Below, piece by piece: positions 13,304 to 26,294 of a DNA stretch of 33,554 nucleotides. Below the pieces are notes generated by a model that made no database searches, was not told where the DNA came from, and saw only the letters and a program-made list of their open reading frames with translations. A program made the translations under genes and the position numbers. Each line of letters starts with the position of its first letter. The stretch's first letter is position 1. The DNA comes from Rugosibacter sp. (lineage in GTDB: Bacteria; Pseudomonadota; Gammaproteobacteria; Burkholderiales; Rhodocyclaceae), in assembly GCA_011620215.1 (NCBI GenBank), contig WOZP01000144.1, positions 1 through 33,554 of the forward strand. The letters are read 5' to 3'.

Positions 13304-14434
13304 TCAGGGTGTTGCTTCTTGTCGAGGGTACTGATAAGGAGAAAATCTGGTGACTTGTGGCTGCTCGTAATCCATATGGCGAGCACAATATATAAATAAA
13401 AAAATCATGAATGCATAAATCAATGTATTGTCCGAGAGGAAAATAACATTCATGAATACAAATGCAATTCGAGTTGAAAATTTCTTGGCTGAATACATCA
13501 GGCCAATAAATATTGAAAAGAAAACAAGACCGTATTCGTAGAATATTTTTAGAACATCACTATGGAGTCTTTGTGCTGTCGTGTACGATCCAATCGCCTT
13601 GTTTGCGAGTATGTAGGTTGAGCCTGGCCCTTGACCAAAGAGAAAAAACTGCTCCGGATGTGAAAAAATTTCGATTGCAGGTAGCGATAACAACGCTTTT
13701 CGCCCTTGACCAAATTCGTTAGCACTTTGCCCGGTCCATTGAGTGATGAAGTAATCAAATGTCCCGTAGCCATACAGTAAAACCAATAGCAACAGCAGGC
13801 AGTTTATGGCTATCATTACAACAGGGTTGAGAATAAGTCGGGCACGCTTCTCACCCAGTAATATAAAAGTTGAAGCAACAATAACCGCTAAAACCGCAAT
13901 TCGTTTCAGCGATAAAACGGTCATCAGAGAACATAAAATAAATAATCTGTATCGTTTTTCCAGTAGAGCAAATGGTGCAAGAAGTCCGAACAGAAAGCTA
14001 AAACTTCCCTCAAATGGGGACGACGATTTTGAAATATCGAAGCTGATGCTTGACCGTAAATCTCCAAATAGGCCAAAGTAAATTAGCCAGCATGTCAGCA
14101 ACGTGAGAAACAAGCTCCACAATCTGATGCGAGGAATATCAATTAAGAATGCTATTGAAACCCCAGTGAGTATGAAGTAAATGTCTTTCATGCCTTCATC
14201 AGTCGCAATCGGGGAAAGGCATATTCCGGCAATTACAACGGCAAGAAAAGGCTTTGCTTCATCCCCAAAGCGAATTTTTTGATCTCCAAGAACTGTAAAA
14301 AGAACCAATATAGGTAGGAGATAGATAAAGTGGCGTAAAAAGGGAAGCGCAATACTCAAGCAAGTGAACGTCAGTCCAGCCCAGAAAACCATGTCCCGAA
14401 CAAGATAATCGCGTCCAAACTCAACTGACTTCAT
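13304..14434 (-). CDS. wzy: O-antigen-ligase-like polymerase (Wzy)
   Basis: A 376-residue protein that is almost wholly hydrophobic, with about 10 membrane helices. A large periplasmic loop carries FGQGPGSTY and then [18 protein letters not shown], the His-containing pattern found in Wzy/WaaL proteins. The expected role is block polymerisation of flipped repeat units, with chain length set by EpsF/EpsG. The gene is clearly more AT-rich than gmd and fcl, as usual for polymerase genes exchanged between EPS loci. Its ATG overlaps the fcl stop by 4 bp (ATGA, 14431-14434). The C-terminal tail ([15 protein letters not shown]) is unremarkable. A ligase role is possible but the operon position favours polymerase. 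Confidence 0.82.
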
Positions 14435-15432
14435 TGAGATTTAGATGTGCTGCTACGCTGAATGGACACATATTCTTTCAGCGCAACCATTAGCCCATTC
14501 TGTAGCGTAGTTTTTGCCGTCCAGCCGATTCCGTTAAGACGGCTTACATCCATCAGTTTTCTTGGCGTGCCATCCTGCTTGCTGGTATCAAAGACGATCT
14601 CGCCTTCAAAACCTACGACTTGCTTTACCGTCTCAGCCAGCTCCCTGATCGTTACATCTTCTCCGACGCCGATATTCACCAGCGGCGGTTCAAATTTCCC
14701 GGTTTTTACTTCATCACTGCCTAGCAAGCTAGCGTATTCCTCATCCGGTAGATTCATCAGGAAGACACAGGCATCGGCCATGTCTTCGCTGTACATGAAT
14801 TCGCGCTTTGGTGTGCCGGTGCCCCAGACGACCACCTGTTTCTCGCCATTTTGTTTGGCCTCGTGAAACTTGCGAATCAGCGCCGGAATGACATGGGAGT
14901 TTTCCGGGTGATAGTTGTCGCCCGGGCCATACAGGTTGGTGGGCATCGCAGCAAGATATTGGGTGCCGTATTGCCGGTTGTAACTCCAGCACATTTCGAT
15001 GCCGGCAATCTTGGCCAGGGCGTAGGGGCGATTAGTCGGCTCCAGCGGGCCGGTGAGGAGATATTCTTCCTTCATCGGCTGCGGGGCGAGCTTGGGGTAA
15101 ATGCAACTGGATCCGAGAAACAGCAAACGCTTGACATTGTTCTGCCAGGCGGCGTGGATGACGTTGGTTTGTATGGCCAGATTATCGCGAATGAATTCAG
15201 CGGGGTATTCGTTGTTGGCGTGGATACCGCCGACTTTGGCGGCAGCAAGGAAGACGTAATCAGGCTTTTCGGTGGTGAAGAATGCCTCGACAGCGCTTTG
15301 GTTGGTCAGATCGAGTTCGGCATGGGTGCGGGCCAGGAGTTTGGTGTAACCCTTGGCTTGCAGATTGTGCATGAGAGCCGAGCCAACGAGGCCACGGTGG
15401 CCGGCGATGTATATCTTGTCTGTGAGCTTCAT
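14431..15432 (-). CDS. fcl: GDP-L-fucose synthase
   Basis: A 333-residue epimerase/reductase that converts GDP-4-keto-6-deoxy-D-mannose to GDP-L-fucose with NADPH. The extended SDR fold has the GHRGLVG cofactor loop at 11-17, catalytic Ser in GSSCIYP (about 108-113), and Tyr137/Lys141 in the YALAK segment. The numbering is offset by one from the E. coli enzyme. [20 protein letters not shown] and the KREFMY segment are standard. It completes the pathway begun by gmd two genes upstream. The ribosome site is weak. It is followed by wzy with an ATGA overlap. The product predicts fucose (or a fucose-derived sugar) in the EPS. Confidence 0.96.
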
Positions 15433-15458
15433 GTTCTAGATTGCATTTGGAAGGAAGA

Positions 15459-16052
15459 TTACTTAACCGCCTCGACGAATAGCGACCCGGGACGGTTATC
15501 CAGATTTTCAACGTCGGGGCAATCGCCCTTCTGGTAGTCGCAACGAGTCACTTGAGAAAATCCAACTGATTGGAGCAACGTGCGAAGACTCTCAAAGTTG
15601 TACATAAAATGATGCATATTCTTCTCTGATCTCTCGTTGGCCTCAAACAGATTGATTGACCAATCCATGGATCGATTCGGATCATAGTCACGTATTTGCG
15701 TATCCAGATCAGGTACGGAAATACGCAGAACTCCCCCTTGCCGCAAACATCGGTAGCTCTCTGCAAGACAAGTTTTTGCACCATGTAAAGGGAGGTGTTC
15801 AAGCACATGAGAGGAATAGATCGCCTCGAACATTCCGCTTGAATACGACCAAGACTTGGTGACGTTAAGATAATGAATTTTCCTGTAAATGCCCTGTCGA
15901 TGCTCTTCGAGGCGCTCATCAGTCATCTTGCCCATTTTGTGCATCAGCCAAGCCAGGCCGGGTACTCGAGCCACAAACAGATGGGGAGTAACATCGGTAT
16001 TCAACCAACCCTCCCGAGGACAATTAAAGCAGCCAAAATGAAGACGGTTCAT
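15459..16052 (-). CDS. SAM-dependent methyltransferase (type 11-like)
   Basis: A 197-residue protein. It opens with LHFGCFNCPREGWLNTDV, the substrate/SAM start seen in small EPS-locus methyltransferases. The core has AIYSSHVLEHLP (motif near the SAM ribose/acid site), CLRQGGVLRISVPDLD and a C-terminal SVGFSQV segment. No membrane helix or signal is present. It sits between gmd and fcl with 5 bases to gmd, so it belongs to the operon. It may methylate a sugar of the repeat unit, possibly a deoxyhexose, but the position is only suggestive. It is more AT-rich than its two neighbours. Confidence 0.8.
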   Translation of the reverse strand: MNRLHFGCFNCPREGWLNTDVTPHLFVARVPGLAWLMHKMGKMTDERLEEHRQGIYRKIHYLNVTKSWSYSSGMFEAIYSSHVLEHLPLHGAKTCLAESYRCLRQGGVLRISVPDLDTQIRDYDPNRSMDWSINLFEANERSEKNMHHFMYNFESLRTLLQSVGFSQVTRCDYQKGDCPDVENLDNRPGSLFVEAVK

Positions 16053-16057
16053 GTGAG

Positions 16058-17143
16058 TTACTCGTGATAATCCATGGCCTTGAAGCCATGTTTCTTGACC
16101 AGCTCGTCGCGCTCGGCGCTCTTCAAGTCATCACGTACCATTTCAGCGACTAGCTCATCAAAGCCGGTTTTGGGCGTCCAGCCAAGTTTTTCACGCGCCT
16201 TGGTCGGATCACCCAGCAGGGTGTCCACTTCAGTCGGACGAAAATAACGGGGATCTACCTTGATAATGACTTTGCCGTTCTGATCGGTGCCGGTTTCTTC
16301 AATCCCTTCGCCGTGCCAGGTGAGCTGAATGCCGAGTTCTTTCGCTGCGGCATTCACAAACTGGCGCACGCTGTATTGCACACCGGTAGCGATGACGAAG
16401 TCTTCAGGCTGGTCTTGTTGCAGCATCAGCCATTGCATCTCGACGTAATCCTTGGCGTGGCCCCAATCGCGCAGAGAATTCATATTGCCCAAGTAGAGAC
16501 AGTCTTGCAGGTTGAGCTTGATGCGGGCAAGCGCACGGGTGATCTTGCGTGTGACGAAGGTTTCGCCACGCAGGGGAGATTCATGGTTGAACAGGATGCC
16601 ATTGCAGGCATAGATACCATAGGCTTCGCGGTAGTTGACGGTGATCCAGTAGGCGTACATCTTAGCCACGGCATAGGGGCTGCGCGGGTAGAAGGGGGTG
16701 GTTTCCTTTTGCGGGGTTTCTTGTACTAAACCGTAAAGCTCGGATGTACTGGCTTGATAGAAACGCGTCTTTTTTTCCAGGCCGAGAATGCGAATGGCTT
16801 CCAAAATGCGCAGGGTGCCGATGCCATCGGCATTGGCGGTATATTCGGGGGTTTCGAAGCTGACGGCGACATGGCTCATGGCAGCGAGGTTATAGATTTC
16901 GTCGGGCTGAACTTGCTGAATGATGCGGATCAGGTTGGTTGAATCAGTCAGATCGCCATAGTGGAGAATAAAGTTTTTATTCTCGACGTGCGGGTCTTGG
17001 TACAGGTGATCAATGCGATCCGTGTTGAAGAGCGAGGCGCGACGCTTGATGCCGTGCACGATATAACCCTTCTTGAGTAAAAATTCCGCGAGGTAGGCCC
17101 CGTCCTGTCCGGTAATGCCGGTGATGAGTGCAATTTTCTTCAT
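16058..17143 (-). CDS. gmd: GDP-mannose 4,6-dehydratase
   Basis: A 361-residue extended SDR that forms GDP-4-keto-6-deoxy-D-mannose from GDP-D-mannose. [20 protein letters not shown] is the invariant NADP loop. The catalytic set is T133, S134, E135 in ASTSELYG plus Y157 and K161 in [31 protein letters not shown] and the C-terminal [12 protein letters not shown] segment are diagnostic. Length is normal. It starts 3 bases after epsI. With Fcl it supplies GDP-L-fucose. The mannose-activating enzymes (ManA/ManB/ManC) are not in the window. Confidence 0.97.
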
Positions 17144-17146
17144 ATG

Positions 17147-17833
17147 TCAGCTTTTGCCAAGGGAACCTGCAAGACGTTGCCGTTGTTCCGGCGTTACTGC
17201 GCCAAGCATTTGGTTAATAAATTTTTCCTGAATATCGTAAGCATGCACCGTGTCCTGATCGATGGAGGACACTCGGGTTAATAGTCCATCCGGAATCTTT
17301 CCGGTGAAGCCATAGCGCATTTCGATCAGTTTTTTCTGAATGCCACTCTGAACCACTTGATCACCGATGGTTATCCAGTAGGTTATCGGTTCACGACGTT
17401 GTCCAAGCTCGGTATCGACTCGCGTTACCAAAAGTGGTCCAAAAGGCAAAACAATCGTTGTAGCGCTCTTTTTTAATAACTGAAACCCTTGAGCTGGATA
17501 GCACACCTCGGGCCTATGTACCTGCGTCCCATCGCTTTGGTCTCCCCCGTAGGCTATCAAGAACATGATGCGATAGCCTTGGCTGTTCGAATACGTTCGA
17601 GACAAAGTCTGGTTGTATATTTTGTTGAGTAATTCTATTTGCTGGGGATTCGCCAAGATAGCCAAGCTCTGTGGCACTTCATGCCAATCACCAAAGCGCT
17701 GCGGAATCATCGCTTCCAAATTAATCGCCGGCTTTTGGTCGGCAATTTTTTGTGTAGGATGCAATACGACGGCCAAGACAGAAGCCACACACATCAGCGT
17801 CAAGAGCAGGATACTTTTGCGAATTACATTCAT
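17147..17833 (-). CDS. epsI: EpsI, exosortase-associated protein
   Basis: A 228-residue protein with an N-terminal membrane anchor (about 8-24) and a periplasmic EpsI domain. The family hallmark HRPEVCYPAQGF (H106-C111) is present, with the preceding MFLIAYGGDQSDGTQ. EpsI proteins are encoded with or fused to exosortases and are thought to act in the same EPS/sorting process; their biochemical role is not settled. The ATG overlaps the exosortase stop by 4 bp. The C-terminus is plain. Its pairing with exosortase B supports the XrtB-type assignment. Confidence 0.92.
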   Translation of the reverse strand: MNVIRKSILLLTLMCVASVLAVVLHPTQKIADQKPAINLEAMIPQRFGDWHEVPQSLAILANPQQIELLNKIYNQTLSRTYSNSQGYRIMFLIAYGGDQSDGTQVHRPEVCYPAQGFQLLKKSATTIVLPFGPLLVTRVDTELGQRREPITYWITIGDQVVQSGIQKKLIEMRYGFTGKIPDGLLTRVSSIDQDTVHAYDIQEKFINQMLGAVTPEQRQRLAGSLGKS

Positions 17834-18765
17834 GATCTCGCCGTCTCACCAGCGCCGACTTTTTGTCTTTGATGACGCCGGATGCGAATAATCACCTGCA
17901 ACAACGAATCCACACTAATGATCAAAAGCAAGGCGCTGATAAATAGCACCATGCCCGCAAAGCCATGCAAGAAGCCCTGCCCTGCTTCGTCGCCAAAATA
18001 GTAGGTGATCAGAGTCAAGGTAATTACGCGGATCACGTTGGCGGTAAATGAGATGGGTACGATACAAATCGCCAGCGCGGTATTGCGAAACCATGAGCTG
18101 TGCCGCACAGTGTTGAGATACAAAAGCCCCATAGCTTCCAACGTGAATAGGGTATGCAAACCAGCGCAGGCATCAGCCACAAGTAACTGGTATTGCCCGA
18201 TCTGAAGCATGACCCCCGTGCGAGAAATAGGATAGCCAGCGGCGAAAAGAATGACGTCGGCCATATAGGAAACCGCCATTTTCATTGGCAAGGTGAGCGA
18301 ATCGACAATCGGCCCTGGCAGCGGCACCATGAACAACATGAAGAAAAGCGGAAACCAGAGAACCATCAATGCCCGTCGACCGACAAGCAACAATACGATG
18401 GCGATCAGCAACCAGAGCAGAGAGCCGATCTCGAATATCAAAATACCTTGCGAACGTCCCAGGATATAGAGAAGCAGACCGATGATGAGTACAGGCCATC
18501 CCCAAGCTGTCGAGACTGAATCCGGCGCACGCTCTACTGCAGCTTTCATGACAGGCCACTGGCGATAGAGCAGCCACACTGAAACGGCTAAAACGATGGG
18601 ACCATGTCCTTGCTCAGGGGTGCTCCAGAGACCACGAAAGAGATCGACAAAGCTGGGCACATACATGGCCGCCAATCCGAGCACAACCAACCCCCATGCA
18701 AACATTGGCGGAAAATCGGCGTTCGTGACACGGCGATTCAATCCTGGCGGCTGCACAGAGGCCAT
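17830..18765 (-). CDS. xrtB: Exosortase B
   Basis: A 311-residue membrane protease/transpeptidase of about 8-9 helices that cleaves PEP-CTERM tails. The catalytic triad of the family is visible: Cys200 in LLVADACAGLHTLFTLEAMG, Arg246 in FTANVIRVITL and His267 in GFLHGFAG. The GLHTLFTLEA wording is that of the B type in betaproteobacterial EPS loci. Likely substrates are the five PEP-CTERM proteins at 25.6-30.3 kb. The last codons (KVGAGE) are encoded by a copy of the 26-bp dispersed repeat, antisense to the other copies. It starts 10 bases after epsG and overlaps epsI by 4 bp. Confidence 0.95.
   Translation of the reverse strand: MASVQPPGLNRRVTNADFPPMFAWGLVVLGLAAMYVPSFVDLFRGLWSTPEQGHGPIVLAVSVWLLYRQWPVMKAAVERAPDSVSTAWGWPVLIIGLLLYILGRSQGILIFEIGSLLWLLIAIVLLLVGRRALMVLWFPLFFMLFMVPLPGPIVDSLTLPMKMAVSYMADVILFAAGYPISRTGVMLQIGQYQLLVADACAGLHTLFTLEAMGLLYLNTVRHSSWFRNTALAICIVPISFTANVIRVITLTLITYYFGDEAGQGFLHGFAGMVLFISALLLIISVDSLLQVIIRIRRHQRQKVGAGETARS
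17839..17864 (-). repeat. Dispersed 26-bp repeat, copy inside the exosortase 3' end
   Basis: On the - strand it reads AAAAAGTCGGCGCTG then GTGAGACGGCG, matching the 30510 copy at 25 of 26 bases. It forms the coding sequence for the last residues of exosortase B (KVGAGETA), just before the ATGA junction to epsI. The other three copies are intergenic. Confidence 0.75.
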
Positions 18766-18775
18766 AGCGTAGCAG

Positions 18776-19675
18776 TCAGAACTCGTTCAGTACAGTGCCC
18801 ACCACCAGGACGCTGGCCTGGGTAAGCTCGTCAACCAAGCGACGCGTCGCACGTAACCGGGAGGTATTTTTGTGCGCAACAACCATTGCACCACCAGCAC
18901 GGGTTGCCAGTGTTTGCGCGTCCGCGTAATTTTCTCCCGCTGGGGTGTCGATGATAATGATGTCAAACTCACGACTTAACTCTTCCATGAGTTGTGAAAA
19001 AATCGGCCGGGAAATCAGTTCCTGTGGGTTCGGTGGTACAGCACCCGCAGGCAAAACCGAGAGATCAATGAGTGAAGGAATTCGCTCAATGGCACTCACT
19101 TCGCCGCGACCAGAAAGAATGGCCGAGAGACCGACACGATTTTCCAGACCAAATAGTTCGTGCTGACGGGGATTTCGCATATCAGCATCAATCAGCAGGG
19201 TGTGTTCTCCCAATTGTGAAAAAACCACTGCTAGATTAGCTGCGAGAAAACTGCGACCTTCACCTCTAACCGGGCTAACGATGGCAAGTGCCTTGCGCTC
19301 CAGCTCAGTGCTGAACCAGCGCAGCATGAGTTGGCTACGCAGGGCGCGTAACGCCTCTACTTGTGGCGAAAAGGGCTTGTAGGCGGCGATAATTTCCTCA
19401 CTGACCAAAGCCTCACCTGCCATGAGATAGGGGTAATCAAATTGACGTGAAAGTACCTGCTGGATATCGGCCTCACTCACCAAACCGAGCTTTACCGCAG
19501 CTTCACCAAAGCGAATGCCTTCTGCTTTCTGCAAACGCAAAATACGCTCAGCGCCTTCGAGCGTGAGTTTGCCTGCATCAATGAGTGTTGCCCCTATCGA
19601 ACGATCTTTATGCGTATCGTTTTCAGTATGACGTGGCTCGAAAGCCTTGAAGATGTTTTCGATATCTGTTTTCAT
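18776..19675 (-). CDS. epsG: EpsG, chain-length tyrosine kinase-like ATPase with MshEN-like N-terminal domain
   Basis: A 299-residue BY-kinase-type ATPase, partner of EpsF. The C-terminal part has a Walker A at 134-142 (SPVRGEGRS, Arg where most have Lys), Walker A' LLIDADMR (160-167) and Walker B IIIIDTPAG near 240. There is no Tyr-rich tail. The first 80 residues hold two 24-residue motifs of MshEN/GspE-N type: SIGATLIDAG... (26-49) and RFGEAAVKLG... (55-78), separated by exactly 5 residues. MshEN domains of this layout bind cyclic di-GMP in MshE. The RLG Arg is kept in the second motif (RFG) but is Ser in the first. It lies between epsF and xrtB with 1-10 base gaps. Confidence 0.92.
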   Translation of the reverse strand: MKTDIENIFKAFEPRHTENDTHKDRSIGATLIDAGKLTLEGAERILRLQKAEGIRFGEAAVKLGLVSEADIQQVLSRQFDYPYLMAGEALVSEEIIAAYKPFSPQVEALRALRSQLMLRWFSTELERKALAIVSPVRGEGRSFLAANLAVVFSQLGEHTLLIDADMRNPRQHELFGLENRVGLSAILSGRGEVSAIERIPSLIDLSVLPAGAVPPNPQELISRPIFSQLMEELSREFDIIIIDTPAGENYADAQTLATRAGGAMVVAHKNTSRLRATRRLVDELTQASVLVVGTVLNEF

Positions 19676-19676
19676 G

Positions 19677-21134
19677 TTAGCTCACCGATACCGCCTGTTT
19701 GCGCTTGAATGGCAAGGCTCGCAAAAACTTCTCCCATGTCTGTACACCTATCTGCATGGTTTCTTTTCTTGTTGGCCATTTGAATGGTGTCCTGAGTTTT
19801 TCAATCACGCCAAGAACAGGCAAGCCCAGCCCTTGGGTCAGATCATCAAGACCACGAATGCGTTGGTCAGCCAGCTCGAGTACCAATGCCCCACCAAGAC
19901 CCAACATTGCACCTATAAAAAATGAAACCAGCACGTTCAGAAAAATTTTCGGACTGGAATGCTTGAGTGGCTCAACAGCCGGATTCAGCAGGGCAATGTT
20001 AGTCTGGGTCGATTGGCTCTCCAGGTTAGATTGCGCCAGCCGTTGTGTGACCAATTCGTAAGTGCGCTGCGCGCTTTCCACTTCACGTTGCAAGACAGAC
20101 ATCTCATCGCGCTGTTGCTTTAACTCAAGTACTTTGGCCTTCTGTGCCGCCAGCGCAGCATTAATCTCCGATTCACGCTGGGCATTGACACGGTTAGACG
20201 TAGAGATACTGCCAACGATCTGTCTTGTCTCCGCTTCAATTTTTGAGCGTAGCGACTGGGCCTCGATCTCCATTTGTTGAATCTGTGGGTGATTTCGACC
20301 CAATTGGCTTCTGGTTTCATGCAACTTGGCTTCTAGCCGGGCGAGATCCCCCTTCAGGCTTTGTATGAGTCCGCTTTGTAACGCCTCGGGCATGCTGTCA
20401 GTACCACTGCGCGCCTGAAACTGACGGGATTGCGATTCGGACTTCAGTGCCTGAATTTCAGTTTTCTGAGCAGAGAGTTGGGTTAGGCGCGAGTTCTCGA
20501 TATCAAGGTGTTCTTCAGTCGCCACAATACCGTGCTCGCGTTGATAGGCAGAAAGCTTTTCTTGAGCCTTCTCTAAACTATCGCGGAGCTGTTTTGTACG
20601 ATCATCAAACCAGCTGGCATATTGGCGCGCCGGCTCGACCTTGAGTTCCAGGTTAGTGTCGATATAGGCTTGTGCAAATGCATTGGCAAGCACTGCAGCA
20701 AACTTGGGGTCTGCGGCAGAGTAATTGATCTGGATAACATTGCTTTCGCGCGACGGTTTGACATCAAGCTTCTTCTGGATGGCCTCAGCAAGCCAGACGT
20801 CAATCCTGCCCTTACCTTCGGTTGCTTCTTGCCATTGCTCGATGGCAGCCGCGCTCTCTACCATCTTGAGCATCTTGACTACTTTTAGTGCTACTTTTTG
20901 ACTATTGATAATATCGATTTGCGTTGCCATATAGCCGGGCATCATTTGCGCCGGAAGAGCAATGCCACCCATTGGGTCAGGGGTTTTCACGTCAACCAAT
21001 ACCGTCGCAGTAGAGGAATATTCTTTGGGTAAAAGCAGGCTGGCTACCAGAGTTATCGCCACGACGGCCAGTAAGGTATACAGCACAACCTTGTAGCGCG
21101 CCTTAAGAATCAGAAGAAATTGCAGAAGATTCAT
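19677..21134 (-). CDS. epsF: EpsF, Wzz/PCP-type chain-length determinant
   Basis: An inner-membrane co-polymerase of about 485 residues. The N-terminal helix (about 16-35, VVLYTLLAVVAITLVASLLL) is followed by the Wzz periplasmic segment (EYSSTATVLVDVKTPDP). A long coiled coil (about 180-390, with repeated Q/E/K heptads such as KAKVLELKQQRDEM) leads to a second helix near 410-430. A short cytosolic tail would contact EpsG. The track start 21137 is GTG; the adjacent ATG at 21134 is preferred because AAGG lies 7 bases upstream. Together with EpsG it would regulate Wzy chain length. Length and order match EpsF proteins of XrtB loci. Confidence 0.94.
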   Translation of the reverse strand: MNLLQFLLILKARYKVVLYTLLAVVAITLVASLLLPKEYSSTATVLVDVKTPDPMGGIALPAQMMPGYMATQIDIINSQKVALKVVKMLKMVESAAAIEQWQEATEGKGRIDVWLAEAIQKKLDVKPSRESNVIQINYSAADPKFAAVLANAFAQAYIDTNLELKVEPARQYASWFDDRTKQLRDSLEKAQEKLSAYQREHGIVATEEHLDIENSRLTQLSAQKTEIQALKSESQSRQFQARSGTDSMPEALQSGLIQSLKGDLARLEAKLHETRSQLGRNHPQIQQMEIEAQSLRSKIEAETRQIVGSISTSNRVNAQRESEINAALAAQKAKVLELKQQRDEMSVLQREVESAQRTYELVTQRLAQSNLESQSTQTNIALLNPAVEPLKHSSPKIFLNVLVSFFIGAMLGLGGALVLELADQRIRGLDDLTQGLGLPVLGVIEKLRTPFKWPTRKETMQIGVQTWEKFLRALPFKRKQAVSVS

Positions 21135-21149
21135 CACTGTACCTTAGGT

Positions 21150-21995
21150 TCAGAAGAGACTTTCGCGGACGTAGATCACATCATCCGCCTTGACCACATC
21201 ATCCATCGCTGGATTTAATTTTTCGACCTTGCCCTCCTTGTTGCGTCGATGCACGCGGATGCCGCGCTCCGTGCCGCGCAACGTTAAACCGCCGCCTTGC
21301 GCCAAGGCTTGCATCACCGTCATGTTGCTCTCGACACGATAAGCACCCGGGCGCTGTACCTCACCATAAACATAGAACATCGGCGCACGGTGAACATAAA
21401 TAATGTCGCCGTTTTGCACAGCGATGTTGCTGCTCATATCGCCACTTAGCGTCATTGCGGGGATGTCCACCTCGACATGGAAAGACTTGCCTTCACGCAT
21501 GCCAGTGATAACTGCAATGTCGGCAGCGCCCGGCATGATGCCACCGGCTAACGCCAAAACATCGGTAACGCGATTACTAGCCAGCTCCAGCGGATATTTA
21601 CCGGGACGATTGACCAGCCCCAGCACGGAAACCTGGGAACTACGATATTGCATCACGATGGCATTCACTTGCGGCTGGACGACAAAACCACCCTCCCGCA
21701 GCATGCGGGCTATAGTCTGTTCGGCAGACTGAATCGAAAGCCCGCCCACCGGCACCGTACCGACTAGAGGGAAGGTAATCGTGCCTGCTTCGGAGATACG
21801 CGTCTCAACGGTGAGATCCGGATTCTGGAACACGCTGACCCGAATAATGTCGCCAGCACCCAGCACGTACTCGCGCTGACTGTCAGCGGCAGGATTGGCA
21901 ACCCGGGCAACTTCAGCAGTCTCTGCAGCCTCGGCACCGAAGAATATAAAGAGAAACAGAAAAAGGGTGCAGGTCCGCGTAAAGAATGAACTCAT
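21150..21995 (-). CDS. epsE: EpsE, Wza-type polysaccharide export protein
   Basis: A 281-residue periplasmic or outer-membrane export protein. A signal peptide (LFLFLFIFFGAEA) comes first, without the lipobox Cys found in Wza. The Poly_export domain follows (YVLGAGDIIRVSVFQNPDL to TVPVGGLS). Two SLBB beta-grasp modules come next, one at SVLGLVNRPGKYPLEL and one at FYVYGEVQRPGAYRVE. The C-terminus is VKADDVIYVRESLF. It probably forms the periplasmic ring of the export channel, with the EpsL barrel as outer-membrane partner. It is followed by epsF with 15 bases between. The Shine-Dalgarno signal is weak, suggesting coupling to epsD. Confidence 0.93.
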   Translation of the reverse strand: MSSFFTRTCTLFLFLFIFFGAEAAETAEVARVANPAADSQREYVLGAGDIIRVSVFQNPDLTVETRISEAGTITFPLVGTVPVGGLSIQSAEQTIARMLREGGFVVQPQVNAIVMQYRSSQVSVLGLVNRPGKYPLELASNRVTDVLALAGGIMPGAADIAVITGMREGKSFHVEVDIPAMTLSGDMSSNIAVQNGDIIYVHRAPMFYVYGEVQRPGAYRVESNMTVMQALAQGGGLTLRGTERGIRVHRRNKEGKVEKLNPAMDDVVKADDVIYVRESLF

Positions 21996-23398: not shown

Positions 23399-25378
23399 TC
23401 AGGGGGTAACCGGGCAGGTAGCAACTTTGACAATACGGTCTTGAGTACCCGGGGCTGCAGGGGTATGGGCCGCGAAGTAGTCCTTCATGGCATCCAGATC
23501 GACAGCGCCGCCCAGCGGGGCGGTACCTGCATTGAACACCGTAAAGTTGTCGCCGCCGGTGGCCAGGAAGGAGTTCATGGTCACACGGTAGCTGGCAAGC
23601 TTGTCGATGGGCACGCCATTGAGTTGCACGCTGCCGTCACAGACGAACTTGCCGCCTTTTTGAGCCGCGAAGTTGGCGGGCGTAGTGTCGAAGGTATGCT
23701 GATAAGCGAAGCCCTTCGACACCTGCAGGATGCGGGCGAAAGGCTGAAGGACGCCCCACTGCTGCTCGAGCAAATCATAGAGCTGCTGGCCGCTCAACGT
23801 CTTGGTCACCAAGGAGTTGCCGAACGGCTGCACGATGAAGGCTTCGCCGTAGGTCACCACGCCATCGCCTTCGCCAGCGGCGCTGGAGGCGTAGGTGAAG
23901 TCGGCGCGGATGCCACCTGGATTCATGAAGGCGATGATTGCTCCACCCAGGTCTGCCGGGGCGGTAGCCTCCAGTTGCGCATCGGCGATCACGTCGCCAA
24001 GGGCGGATTCCCCTGCACTATTGCTGCTGCGGGTGATGGCAGCGGTGATCAGGCCAATGGCCTGATTGGCCAGAGGCGCGGCCAGCGCGTTGTAGTTGCT
24101 TACCAGTGTAGTTAACGCAGGCACCGCAGTCATGGCTGGGTTGCTGCGATCCACCAAGACGTTGTCAACGGCAATACTTTCCACCTCGCGCGTGGCAGTG
24201 TTGAGGGTCATGTCAATCTCGGTGACCATGCGGCCAATGGCATTGGTGCTGGTGACCGGGATATTACGGTCGACGCTGTTGGGCAGGCTGCACAGATAGG
24301 CCTGGTGGGTATGGCCGCTGATCACCAGATCTACCTCGTCATCCATACGCTTGACGATATCCAGAAGAGCACCTGAGATGCCAGTGCAGTCGTTGATGAC
24401 GCTGGAAGTGCTATCCACTGCGCCCTCGTGCACCACGACTACCACTGCCTTTGCACCTTGCGCCTTTAATTCTGGAATAAGCGCGTTGACGGTCTCGGCC
24501 TCGTCCTTGAAGTCCAGCGTGCTGATACCGCTGGGGGTGACGATGCTGGGCGTGGCTTTCAGGGTCATGCCGATGAAGGCCACCTTGTTACCTTTGAAAT
24601 TCTTGATGGCGTAGGCCGGGAACAGGGTCTTGCCATCGGCTTTTTCCACCACGTTGGCGGCCAGGAACTTGAACTTGGCGCCCTCGAACGGATAGGGCGT
24701 GCCCACCTGGTTGCCCTGGCAGGAATTAGCGTCGGTGGGATGGCAGCCACCGTTTTGCATGCGCAACAACTCGTCCTTGCCCTCGTCAAACTCATGGTTG
24801 CCCACGGCGTTAACATCCAGACCAAGAATATTCATGCCTTCAATGGTCGGTTCGTCATGGAACAGGGCGGAGATGAGCGGCGTGGCGCCAATCAGGTCGC
24901 CGGCGGAAACCACCACACTGTTGGGCGATTTGGCACGTATGCTGTTGACATACGCCGCCAGCATGTCGATGCCGCCCACCGGCTTGCCGGAAAAATTGCC
25001 CGGGCTTAATAACTGGCCGTGAAAATCATTGATGGCGGCGATTTTCACCGACAGGGTCTTGCCCACGGCGGCCTGGGCGGCGACTCGCATCAGCCCGGAA
25101 CGCTCCTGGACGGTAATTTTTTTCGTTTTCTGCCATTCCAGGGTAAGTGCGGAAACCGCGCTGACAAATTCACCATGGTTGCCCCAGTTGGCACCCTCAA
25201 CAGCAGTGTCAATGATGCGGTCATTGATGCAGATGCCGCCGATGTCCTTGTTGATGACACCCGAATCCACAGCGCCGACAAAAACATTGGTGCGGTTATC
25301 CAGACAAGCGGCCTGGACCTGAGCGGCACCGCAAGCGATTATCGTAGCCAGAGCGAGGGGTTTGAATAGGGTACGCAT
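23399..25378 (-). CDS. Secreted UshA-like 5'-nucleotidase / bifunctional metallophosphatase
   Basis: A periplasmic metallophosphoesterase that removes phosphate from nucleotides or related sugar diphosphates. The track start would add 82 junk residues. The ATG at 25378 begins the signal peptide MRTLFKPLALATIIACGAAQ and has AGGA upstream, giving 659 residues. After an unusual extension (about 24-112), the metallophos domain has NDFHG (117-121), SAGDLIGATP, GNHEFDEG (193-200) and SGHTHQAYLC. The 5_nucleotid_C domain has MNPGGIRADF, YGEAFIVQPFGN and FLATGGDNFTVF. Metal-binding residues look intact. There is no PEP-CTERM tail, unlike the cargo genes beside it. It ends before a clear terminator. 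Confidence 0.92.
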   Translation of the reverse strand: MRTLFKPLALATIIACGAAQVQAACLDNRTNVFVGAVDSGVINKDIGGICINDRIIDTAVEGANWGNHGEFVSAVSALTLEWQKTKKITVQERSGLMRVAAQAAVGKTLSVKIAAINDFHGQLLSPGNFSGKPVGGIDMLAAYVNSIRAKSPNSVVVSAGDLIGATPLISALFHDEPTIEGMNILGLDVNAVGNHEFDEGKDELLRMQNGGCHPTDANSCQGNQVGTPYPFEGAKFKFLAANVVEKADGKTLFPAYAIKNFKGNKVAFIGMTLKATPSIVTPSGISTLDFKDEAETVNALIPELKAQGAKAVVVVVHEGAVDSTSSVINDCTGISGALLDIVKRMDDEVDLVISGHTHQAYLCSLPNSVDRNIPVTSTNAIGRMVTEIDMTLNTATREVESIAVDNVLVDRSNPAMTAVPALTTLVSNYNALAAPLANQAIGLITAAITRSSNSAGESALGDVIADAQLEATAPADLGGAIIAFMNPGGIRADFTYASSAAGEGDGVVTYGEAFIVQPFGNSLVTKTLSGQQLYDLLEQQWGVLQPFARILQVSKGFAYQHTFDTTPANFAAQKGGKFVCDGSVQLNGVPIDKLASYRVTMNSFLATGGDNFTVFNAGTAPLGGAVDLDAMKDYFAAHTPAAPGTQDRIVKVATCPVTP

Positions 25379-25504
25379 AAAATAAATTCCTAAGTTGTGT
25401 GTGAAACAGGCAGTTTGGATGTTTTGAATTCTCCGCCAGGATTGTGACAACCGATTGGTGGGAAGGCAGCGCGGATATAGGTAATTCGGTCTACGGACTG
25501 CAAT

Positions 25505-25540
25505 AAAAAAGCGGTGATGGCAGAGCCATGCCATCACCGC
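25505..25540 (-). terminator. Intrinsic terminator after the first PEP-CTERM gene
   Basis: On the - strand GCGGTGATGGC and GCCATCACCGC form a perfect 11-bp stem with an 8-base loop, followed directly by six T. It lies 47 bases past the stop of the gene at 25587-26294. This is a textbook rho-independent terminator. Confidence 0.9.
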
Positions 25541-25586
25541 GAGGGGCCATCCCCCCAGCCTGTATGGCCGGAAGGAAAACTGCGGA

Positions 25587-26294
25587 TCAGGCCACCTTGT
25601 CCTGCTTCCGGCGGCGGGCGGCAAAGCCGACCAGACCGAGGCCTGCCAGCAGCATGGCGTAGATTTCAGGTTCGGGTATGGGTGAATTTATGAAGCTTTC
25701 GCTGAAACCCCCTGCGAAGCTTTGCACATGGAGGCCAACACGCAACCAGGGGGTGGCGGCGGTTGGAATGCTACCGGGCAGGGCCAGCGCGGCCAGCACG
25801 TCGGCAAAAGTCTTGCCGCTCTTGAGCGAGAAATCGATCGCCAGCCACTCGCCGGTCGCATCGCTGTTCTGGACGCCATTCTTGGTTGGCGGGCTATCGG
25901 CATCTGCCAAAAAGCCGGCGGTCGTCTGAAAAGCAGGAGAAACGCTATTCCCACCGGGCAGGTCGGGTGGCGATGCACTTCCTCCCGTAAAGCTTACCCC
26001 GCTGCTGGAGGCGACTCCGCTGATCCCGAGCAGTGCCCCATCAGCGAAATAGACGTCGGTCAGACTCGAATAATTGGAGTTGTTGGTGAACTTGAACCGC
26101 ACCAAGCTCTCACCGATATCACTTACTTCCGCCCGCAAATTCGCTACGCCGTCAGCGACCGCATTGCCAGTCGAATCGTTGCTGGTGATGCCATAAAAAT
26201 TCAGAACTGCCGGCGCGGCATATGCAGGAGCCGCCGACAGCAGGCCGATGCAGCAGACGGCGCCGACCAGTGACTTGAGAAATTTCGTATTCAT
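25587..26294 (-). CDS. PEP-CTERM protein of unknown function
   Basis: A 235-residue secreted protein. The signal peptide is LVGAVCCIGLLSAAPAYA. The mature part is rich in Ser, Gly, Ala and Asn with a beta-strand look (VRFKFTNNSNYSSLTDVYFAD). The C-terminus has the full exosortase signal: PIPEPEIYAMLLAGLGLVGF and then the basic tail AARRRKQDKVA. It is probably exported by Sec and cleaved at the PEP motif by the exosortase B encoded in the same locus. AAAGGAGAGCACG precedes the ATG. I do not recognise the mature domain beyond its resemblance to other unnamed PEP-CTERM proteins. It is monocistronic with its own terminator. Confidence 0.88.
   Translation of the reverse strand: MNTKFLKSLVGAVCCIGLLSAAPAYAAPAVLNFYGITSNDSTGNAVADGVANLRAEVSDIGESLVRFKFTNNSNYSSLTDVYFADGALLGISGVASSSGVSFTGGSASPPDLPGGNSVSPAFQTTAGFLADADSPPTKNGVQNSDATGEWLAIDFSLKSGKTFADVLAALALPGSIPTAATPWLRVGLHVQSFAGGFSESFINSPIPEPEIYAMLLAGLGLVGFAARRRKQDKVA

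Follow-up and report, generated by a model that had tools for sequence, protein, structure and literature searches.

EpsG of the XrtB-type exopolysaccharide operon joins an N-terminal domain, whose genuine homology to MshEN_N is supported by profile matches, predicted fold and ligand-contact residues conserved throughout the family, to a BY-kinase-like domain that has lost its catalytic lysine and tyrosine tail and conserved its ring motif. Its operon partner is the membrane protein EpsF. We lean towards reading EpsG as a BY pseudokinase that senses c-di-GMP and gates EpsF, with one c-di-GMP bound by the N-terminal MshEN_N domain.

The gene was analysed in a window of 33,554 nucleotides from Rugosibacter sp. 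(contig WOZP01000144.1), this term denoting the whole stretch. It lies on the minus strand, and translation of the plus strand over 18776-19675 was without any open frame. The initial annotation was silent on the strand, as it was on the deviation from Leu25 of MshE to Ala42 and on the loss of kinase catalytic residues, both described below. The EpsG profile TIGR03029 scored the window protein at 387.9 bits, above its equivalog threshold of 313.8, and profile matches gave the gene order epsD-epsE-epsF-epsG-xrtB-epsI, that of an XrtB-type exopolysaccharide operon (Table 1). An EpsF homologue was found close to epsG and on the same strand at 78 of 80 loci, adjoining epsG in all 78; the remaining two loci lie on contigs that end ~200 bases upstream.

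Table 1. Positions of epsG, its sequence motifs and neighbouring operon genes in the window
Feature	Position	Strand	EpsG residues	Description
epsG	18776..19675	minus		299 aa; ATG at 19675, stop 18778-18776; MshEN_N-type N-terminus and BY-kinase-like domain
MshEN motif I	19529..19600	minus	26-49	SIGATLIDAGKLTLEGAERILRLQ (written S26-IGATLIDAGKLTLEGAERILRLQ-49)
Spacer	19514..19528	minus	50-54	KAEGI, exactly five residues
MshEN motif II	19442..19513	minus	55-78	RFGEAAVKLGLVSEADIQQVLSRQ (written R55-FGEAAVKLGLVSEADIQQVLSRQ-78)
ExxRxxR ring-oligomerisation motif	19337..19357	minus	107-113	EALRALR; invariant in 100/100 EpsG
Degenerate Walker A	19250..19264	minus	138-142	GEGRS; Arg141 at the catalytic Lys position (aligned to CapB GAGKS)
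Walker A'	19172..19201	minus	159-168	TLLIDADMRN; DxD retained here, DxN in about 40% of orthologues
Walker B region	18920..18964	minus	238-252	DIIIIDTPAGENYAD
epsF	19677..21137	minus		Membrane/periplasmic chain-length determinant, PCP-2 partner without kinase domain; TIGR03017 611.2 bits, cut-off 422.75
epsE	21150..21995	minus		Polysaccharide export protein; TIGR03028 374.9 bits
Exosortase B (XrtB)	17830..18765	minus		TIGR03113 410 bits
EpsI, B-type, exosortase-associated	17147..17833	minus		NF045609 294.9 bits

Two 24-residue motifs, at residues 26-49 and 55-78 and five residues apart, had been proposed in the initial annotation, and the sequence itself, shuffling and the profile NF053729 all bear them out. 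The key residues of motif I are S26 (at the Arg position), G28, G35, A42 (at the Leu position), L46 and Q49, and those of motif II are R55, F56, G57, G64, I71, L75 and Q78. Arg is thus lost in motif I and kept in motif II, as had also been proposed, and Gly3 and Gln24 are present in both motifs. A regular expression demanding Gly3, Gly10, Gln24 and a hydrophobic residue in each motif matched EpsG from residue 26 and had no match in 300,000 shuffled versions of the protein. NF053729, the 53-residue NCBIfam model for MshE-type c-di-GMP domains, has a cut-off of 38 bits; it matched residues 27-78 with E 2.1e-9 and 37.0 bits by hmmscan, and EpsG scored 41.3 bits, above the cut-off, in a whole-genome scan. 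A chance motif was ruled out by the shuffles and the profile E-values. The rule for motif position 1 (R, K or L in both motifs) is followed by Arg55 in motif II and broken by Ser26 in motif I, so the domain is called MshEN-like by homology and not a proven c-di-GMP receptor.

Absence of an MshEN profile hit had been named as grounds for rejecting the domain and, taken literally, this is what Pfam gives: its MshEN model (PF05157, 90 positions) matched neither EpsG nor any of 68 orthologues. NF053729, however, matched 68 of the 68 orthologues scanned, and for this reason the Pfam miss was not counted as a refutation. Judging from the model length, the likely cause of the miss is that PF05157 reaches past the ligand-binding half of the domain, the only part of it present in EpsG: the four-helix half is followed by the kinase-like domain, and the C-terminal half of MshEN is absent.

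Homology to characterized MshEN domains was also detected directly. In phmmer searches against PDB chains, residues 23-86 matched Thermus PilF (E 5.8e-10) and residues 25-115 matched MshE (5HTL, E 3.5e-4). A profile built from 43 EpsG N-termini matched MshE 5HTL with E 1e-8, gapless over 62 columns, together with several PilB/PilF domains, and positions 3-74 of the EpsG family profile also matched frames of pilus-ATPase length in related genomes. AlphaFold2, run on 68 orthologues, gave a model with mean pLDDT 89.2 in which predicted helices 27-33, 39-52, 56-62 and 68-78 form a four-helix bundle. For residues 20-93 modelled separately (pLDDT 75), the best Foldseek match was MshE with c-di-GMP (5HTL; 0.8 Å over 52 columns, probability 1.00), at an E-value of 0.023 whose weakness reflects the shortness of the domain; c-di-GMP-bound PilF structures (GSPII-B holo forms) came next. 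The MshEN_N fold is what structure prediction returned, with the caveat that the software had probably been exposed to the MshE fold beforehand.

Conservation was assessed in a set of 100 mostly beta-proteobacterial EpsG proteins, comprising the window protein, 19 from genome searches and the best 80 from a scan of 84,980 species genomes. G28, L31 and G57 are kept in all 100, followed by Q78 (99), F56 (96), Q49 and L75 (94 each), G35 (93), G64 (90), R55 (89) and L46 (75); G28, Q49, G57 and Q78 occur jointly in 93. Position 1 of motif I is Ser in 64 and Arg in four, and the equivalent of MshE Leu25 is Ala in 77. The expected conservation of the motif Gly and Arg across orthologues thus held for both glycines and for R55 but failed for the Arg of motif I. 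At the c-di-GMP contact positions, defined as the residues touching c-di-GMP in MshE (PMC5013675), the mean share of the majority residue was 0.88, compared with 0.59 elsewhere in the domain; since the two classes were compared inside one domain, relatedness is controlled for.

Mapped on MshE, the main EpsG deviations cluster in the guanine-1 half-site: Ser26 takes the place of the stacking Arg9, and Ala42 and Phe56 replace Leu25 and Leu39, which share one hydrophobic triangle. The exchange of small for large at one position and large for small at the other suggests compensation. Leu/Leu occurs at these positions in a single EpsG row (L039, from the deepest EpsG branch), and also in all of the three fetched PF05157 loci that alone satisfied the strict double pattern. 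In MshE, substitutions of Arg9, Asp12 or Gln32 shift affinity about fivefold at most (PMC5013675). PilF GSPII-B binds c-di-GMP at 6 nM with Lys and Leu at motif position 1, and GSPII-C binds it at about 0.3-0.5 µM despite Pro at one of these positions (PMC11731258). Given these precedents, loss of the motif I Arg does not rule out binding. The MshEN_N half without its C-terminal partner is also sufficient in MshE, where it binds c-di-GMP at 0.35 µM (PMC5013675). Among the tested MshEN domains in the literature searched, none with Ser at motif position 1 came to light. The EpsG sequence appears compatible with c-di-GMP binding, and we predict that its MshEN domain probably binds this ligand.

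The genomic setting was also surveyed. In the Rugosibacter assembly, which is about 90% complete, there are 14 GGDEF genes, one PilZ gene and just two NF053729 loci, EpsG and a 586-aa frame. EpsG is therefore among the few recognizable candidate c-di-GMP receptors there, and such receptors are scarce relative to the 14 cyclase-type genes.

The deviations at the guanine-1 site bear on two other accounts of the domain. It may be a vestigial MshEN fold that serves as a docking module for EpsF or a polymerase and has lost c-di-GMP sensing, like the N-domain of XpsE. The prevalence of Ser at position 1 of motif I and of Ala at the Leu25 equivalent agrees with such a loss, and XpsE (PMC5013675) and PilF GSPII-A (PMC11731258) are relatives that do not bind c-di-GMP. 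Yet most of the residues lost in XpsE (G11, G40, L29, L58, Q61 and R38) are kept in EpsG (G28 and G57 100%, Q78 99%, L75 94%, R55 89%, L46 75%), no structural reason for the Gln at motif position 24 is evident when the ligand is absent, and the contact positions are better conserved than the rest of the domain. We therefore regard a purely docking role as unlikely. The grouping of the main deviations (S26, A42 and F56) in one half-site could instead reflect a pocket altered for another cyclic dinucleotide such as 3',3'-cGAMP, which MshEN binds weakly (PMC5013675); however, with 14 GGDEF genes in the genome c-di-GMP is the obvious ligand, and we give this alternative very little weight.

The kinase-like part of EpsG is degraded across the family. 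Foldseek placed it with CapB/Wzc kinase-domain entries (TMt 0.74-0.85). At the Walker A lysine position the 100 EpsG proteins have Arg in 56, Ala in 17, Cys in eight, Val in six, Thr in five, Ser in four, Ile in two, and Leu and Lys in one each; the sole lysine belongs to a protein on a long branch (L017, G033). The window protein ends in VVGTVLNEF, so that the tyrosine-rich tail is absent, and the last 25 residues contain no Tyr in 87 of the 100 and a single Tyr in 13. As controls we used 18 other BY-kinases from the same genomes, 17 of them readable at Walker A: lysine was kept in 16 of the 17, and at least four Tyr were present in the last 40 residues in 15 of the 18. One non-EpsG BY-kinase (L129, G040) likewise lacks both the lysine (GDGAS) and the tail. 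In a tree with the control BY-kinases, a well-supported branch (98/96) sets the EpsG kinase-like domains apart on one side. The second BY-kinase of the Rugosibacter genome (L134, G000:C6:15500-18500) has a canonical GEGKS and the tail GYGYGYGYGYG, and an active-looking and a degraded BY-kinase type thus coexist in one cell.

From these substitutions, kinase activity has very likely been lost in EpsG. The alternative, in line with the kinase of the initial annotation, is an active BY-kinase in which Arg141 replaces the lysine and c-di-GMP modulates activity through MshEN. TIGR03029 is named a tyrosine kinase, Walker A' and B are kept in the window protein, and Arg is the commonest replacement; with Arg141, about half the family might retain some activity. 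Against this, 43 of the 100 have neither Arg nor Lys at this position but Ala, Cys, Val, Thr, Ser, Ile or Leu, and Lys-to-Met at this residue is the mutation used in the solved Wzc (K540M) and CapB (K55M) structures. Moreover, DxD of Walker A' has become DxN in 38 of these 43 proteins compared with two of the 56 with Arg, a concentration suggesting that catalytic decay went through a second step. With the tyrosine tail gone as well, we consider an active kinase improbable. Of the earlier proposal of a c-di-GMP input on the chain-length kinase, what survives is an MshEN_N homologue on the BY-kinase-like partner of EpsF; the word kinase does not, and tuning of a kinase activity by c-di-GMP is probably not what occurs, since EpsG has neither Walker A lysine nor tyrosine tail. 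By analogy with the solved Wzc K540M structures, which contain MgADP, nucleotide binding by EpsG may persist. The database name 'tyrosine kinase EpsG' may accordingly mislead.

In the pseudokinase reading that we favour, EpsG would be a stand-alone BY-kinase-fold partner of EpsF without phosphotransfer chemistry, and its MshEN_N domain (residues 26-78) would take up one c-di-GMP. The domain ends about 25 residues ahead of the helix (residues 104-121) containing ExxRxxR, the motif through which BY-kinases form their kinase ring. In PilF GSPII-B, binding of c-di-GMP undoes the first turn of helix 1 and gives the next subdomain a new orientation (PMC11731258). Ligand at residues 26-78 of EpsG might similarly alter ring packing of the kinase-like domain through the 104-121 helix, and altered packing would change how EpsF is engaged or assembled. 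The change in EpsF would in turn switch or tune assembly and export of the polymer, substituting for the Wzc-type cycle of tyrosine autophosphorylation. For the gating of EpsF by c-di-GMP itself, we judge the case evenly poised. More tentatively, c-di-GMP binding may have replaced tyrosine autophosphorylation as the putative switch of the PCP-2 cycle in XrtB-type EpsF/EpsG systems.

The two halves of EpsG have separate precedents. With MshE (Vibrio cholerae, 5HTL) and Thermus PilF GSPII-B it shares the two 24-residue motifs, the five-residue spacer, the four-helix bundle and Gly3 and Gln24. It differs from them in lacking the C-terminal alpha/beta half, in having Ser rather than Arg, Lys or Leu at position 1 of motif I and Ala/Phe rather than Leu/Leu in the guanine-1 triangle, and in being fused to a BY-kinase fold rather than a pilus or secretion ATPase. 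Its kinase-domain fold is that of CapA/CapB (Staphylococcus) and Wzc (E. coli), at about 30% identity, but these active BY-kinases have the Walker A lysine and a tyrosine cluster and no MshEN. A similar arrangement is that of EcpK/EpsV (Myxococcus xanthus) and HfsB/HfsA (Caulobacter), in which a BY pseudokinase accompanies a kinase-less PCP-2 protein (PMC12004946), just as EpsG, a stand-alone fold without catalytic Lys or tail, is paired with EpsF. EcpK, however, has lost all Walker motifs, whereas Walker A', Walker B and ExxRxxR are all retained in EpsG, which carries the MshEN domain in addition. The Wzc-type cycle consists of tyrosine phosphorylation and dephosphorylation, and the driver of the EcpK/EpsV type was left open in the same paper, in which c-di-GMP does not appear (PMC12004946). 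An MshEN-type domain is found elsewhere in exopolysaccharide pathways, in NfrB of E. coli, a c-di-GMP-controlled exopolysaccharide synthase (PMC8669469). The NCBIfam model for NfrB matched 13 of 68 EpsG proteins, through residues 21-98 in the window protein, although NfrB is a glycosyltransferase and EpsG a co-polymerase partner.

The eps gene names presumably originate from Methylobacillus. Wang et al. 2016 (PMC5013675) had already included a Methylobacillus exopolysaccharide-biosynthesis protein in their list of MshEN proteins. This entry is very likely an orthologue of EpsG, so that the presence of MshEN in EpsG is not new. The protein is listed only, and the main text gives no analysis of its kinase domain or variant site. 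The open-access literature searched held no description of the EpsG variant site or of family-wide loss of the catalytic lysine, no source linking c-di-GMP to a BY pseudokinase or MshEN to a degraded BY-kinase, and nothing direct on EpsG with c-di-GMP. In Herbaspirillum, an eps cluster with a gene named epsG is induced in biofilm (PMC4195743); that gene is termed a glucosyltransferase gene and may therefore differ from the TIGR03029 EpsG.

If the favoured reading is correct, EpsG would be a BY pseudokinase gated by a second messenger, and this would explain the cycling of at least one class of pseudokinase-dependent co-polymerases. As a c-di-GMP sensor fused to a pseudokinase, it offers a concrete and testable answer to the open question of the EcpK cycle. 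A biofilm signal would then be tied directly and post-translationally to polymer assembly and export, in many environmental beta-proteobacteria (nitrifiers, methylotrophs, Herbaspirillum, Janthinobacterium).

The genes flanking the operon in the window were also inspected. Upstream of epsD, on the minus strand, are genes for proteins resembling a 5'-nucleotidase and an FxDxF PEP-CTERM protein (23399-25624 and 25587-26294); the PEP-CTERM-like protein (46.5 bits, cut-off 50) is a possible exosortase substrate. After epsI, also on the minus strand (14431-17143), are GDP-mannose dehydratase-like and GDP-fucose synthase-like genes, assigned by eye, with a methyltransferase-like gene between them. 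A relative of the gene at 16058-17143 was present within the fetched epsG flank at just seven of 80 loci, indicating that the part of the cluster after epsI is variable.
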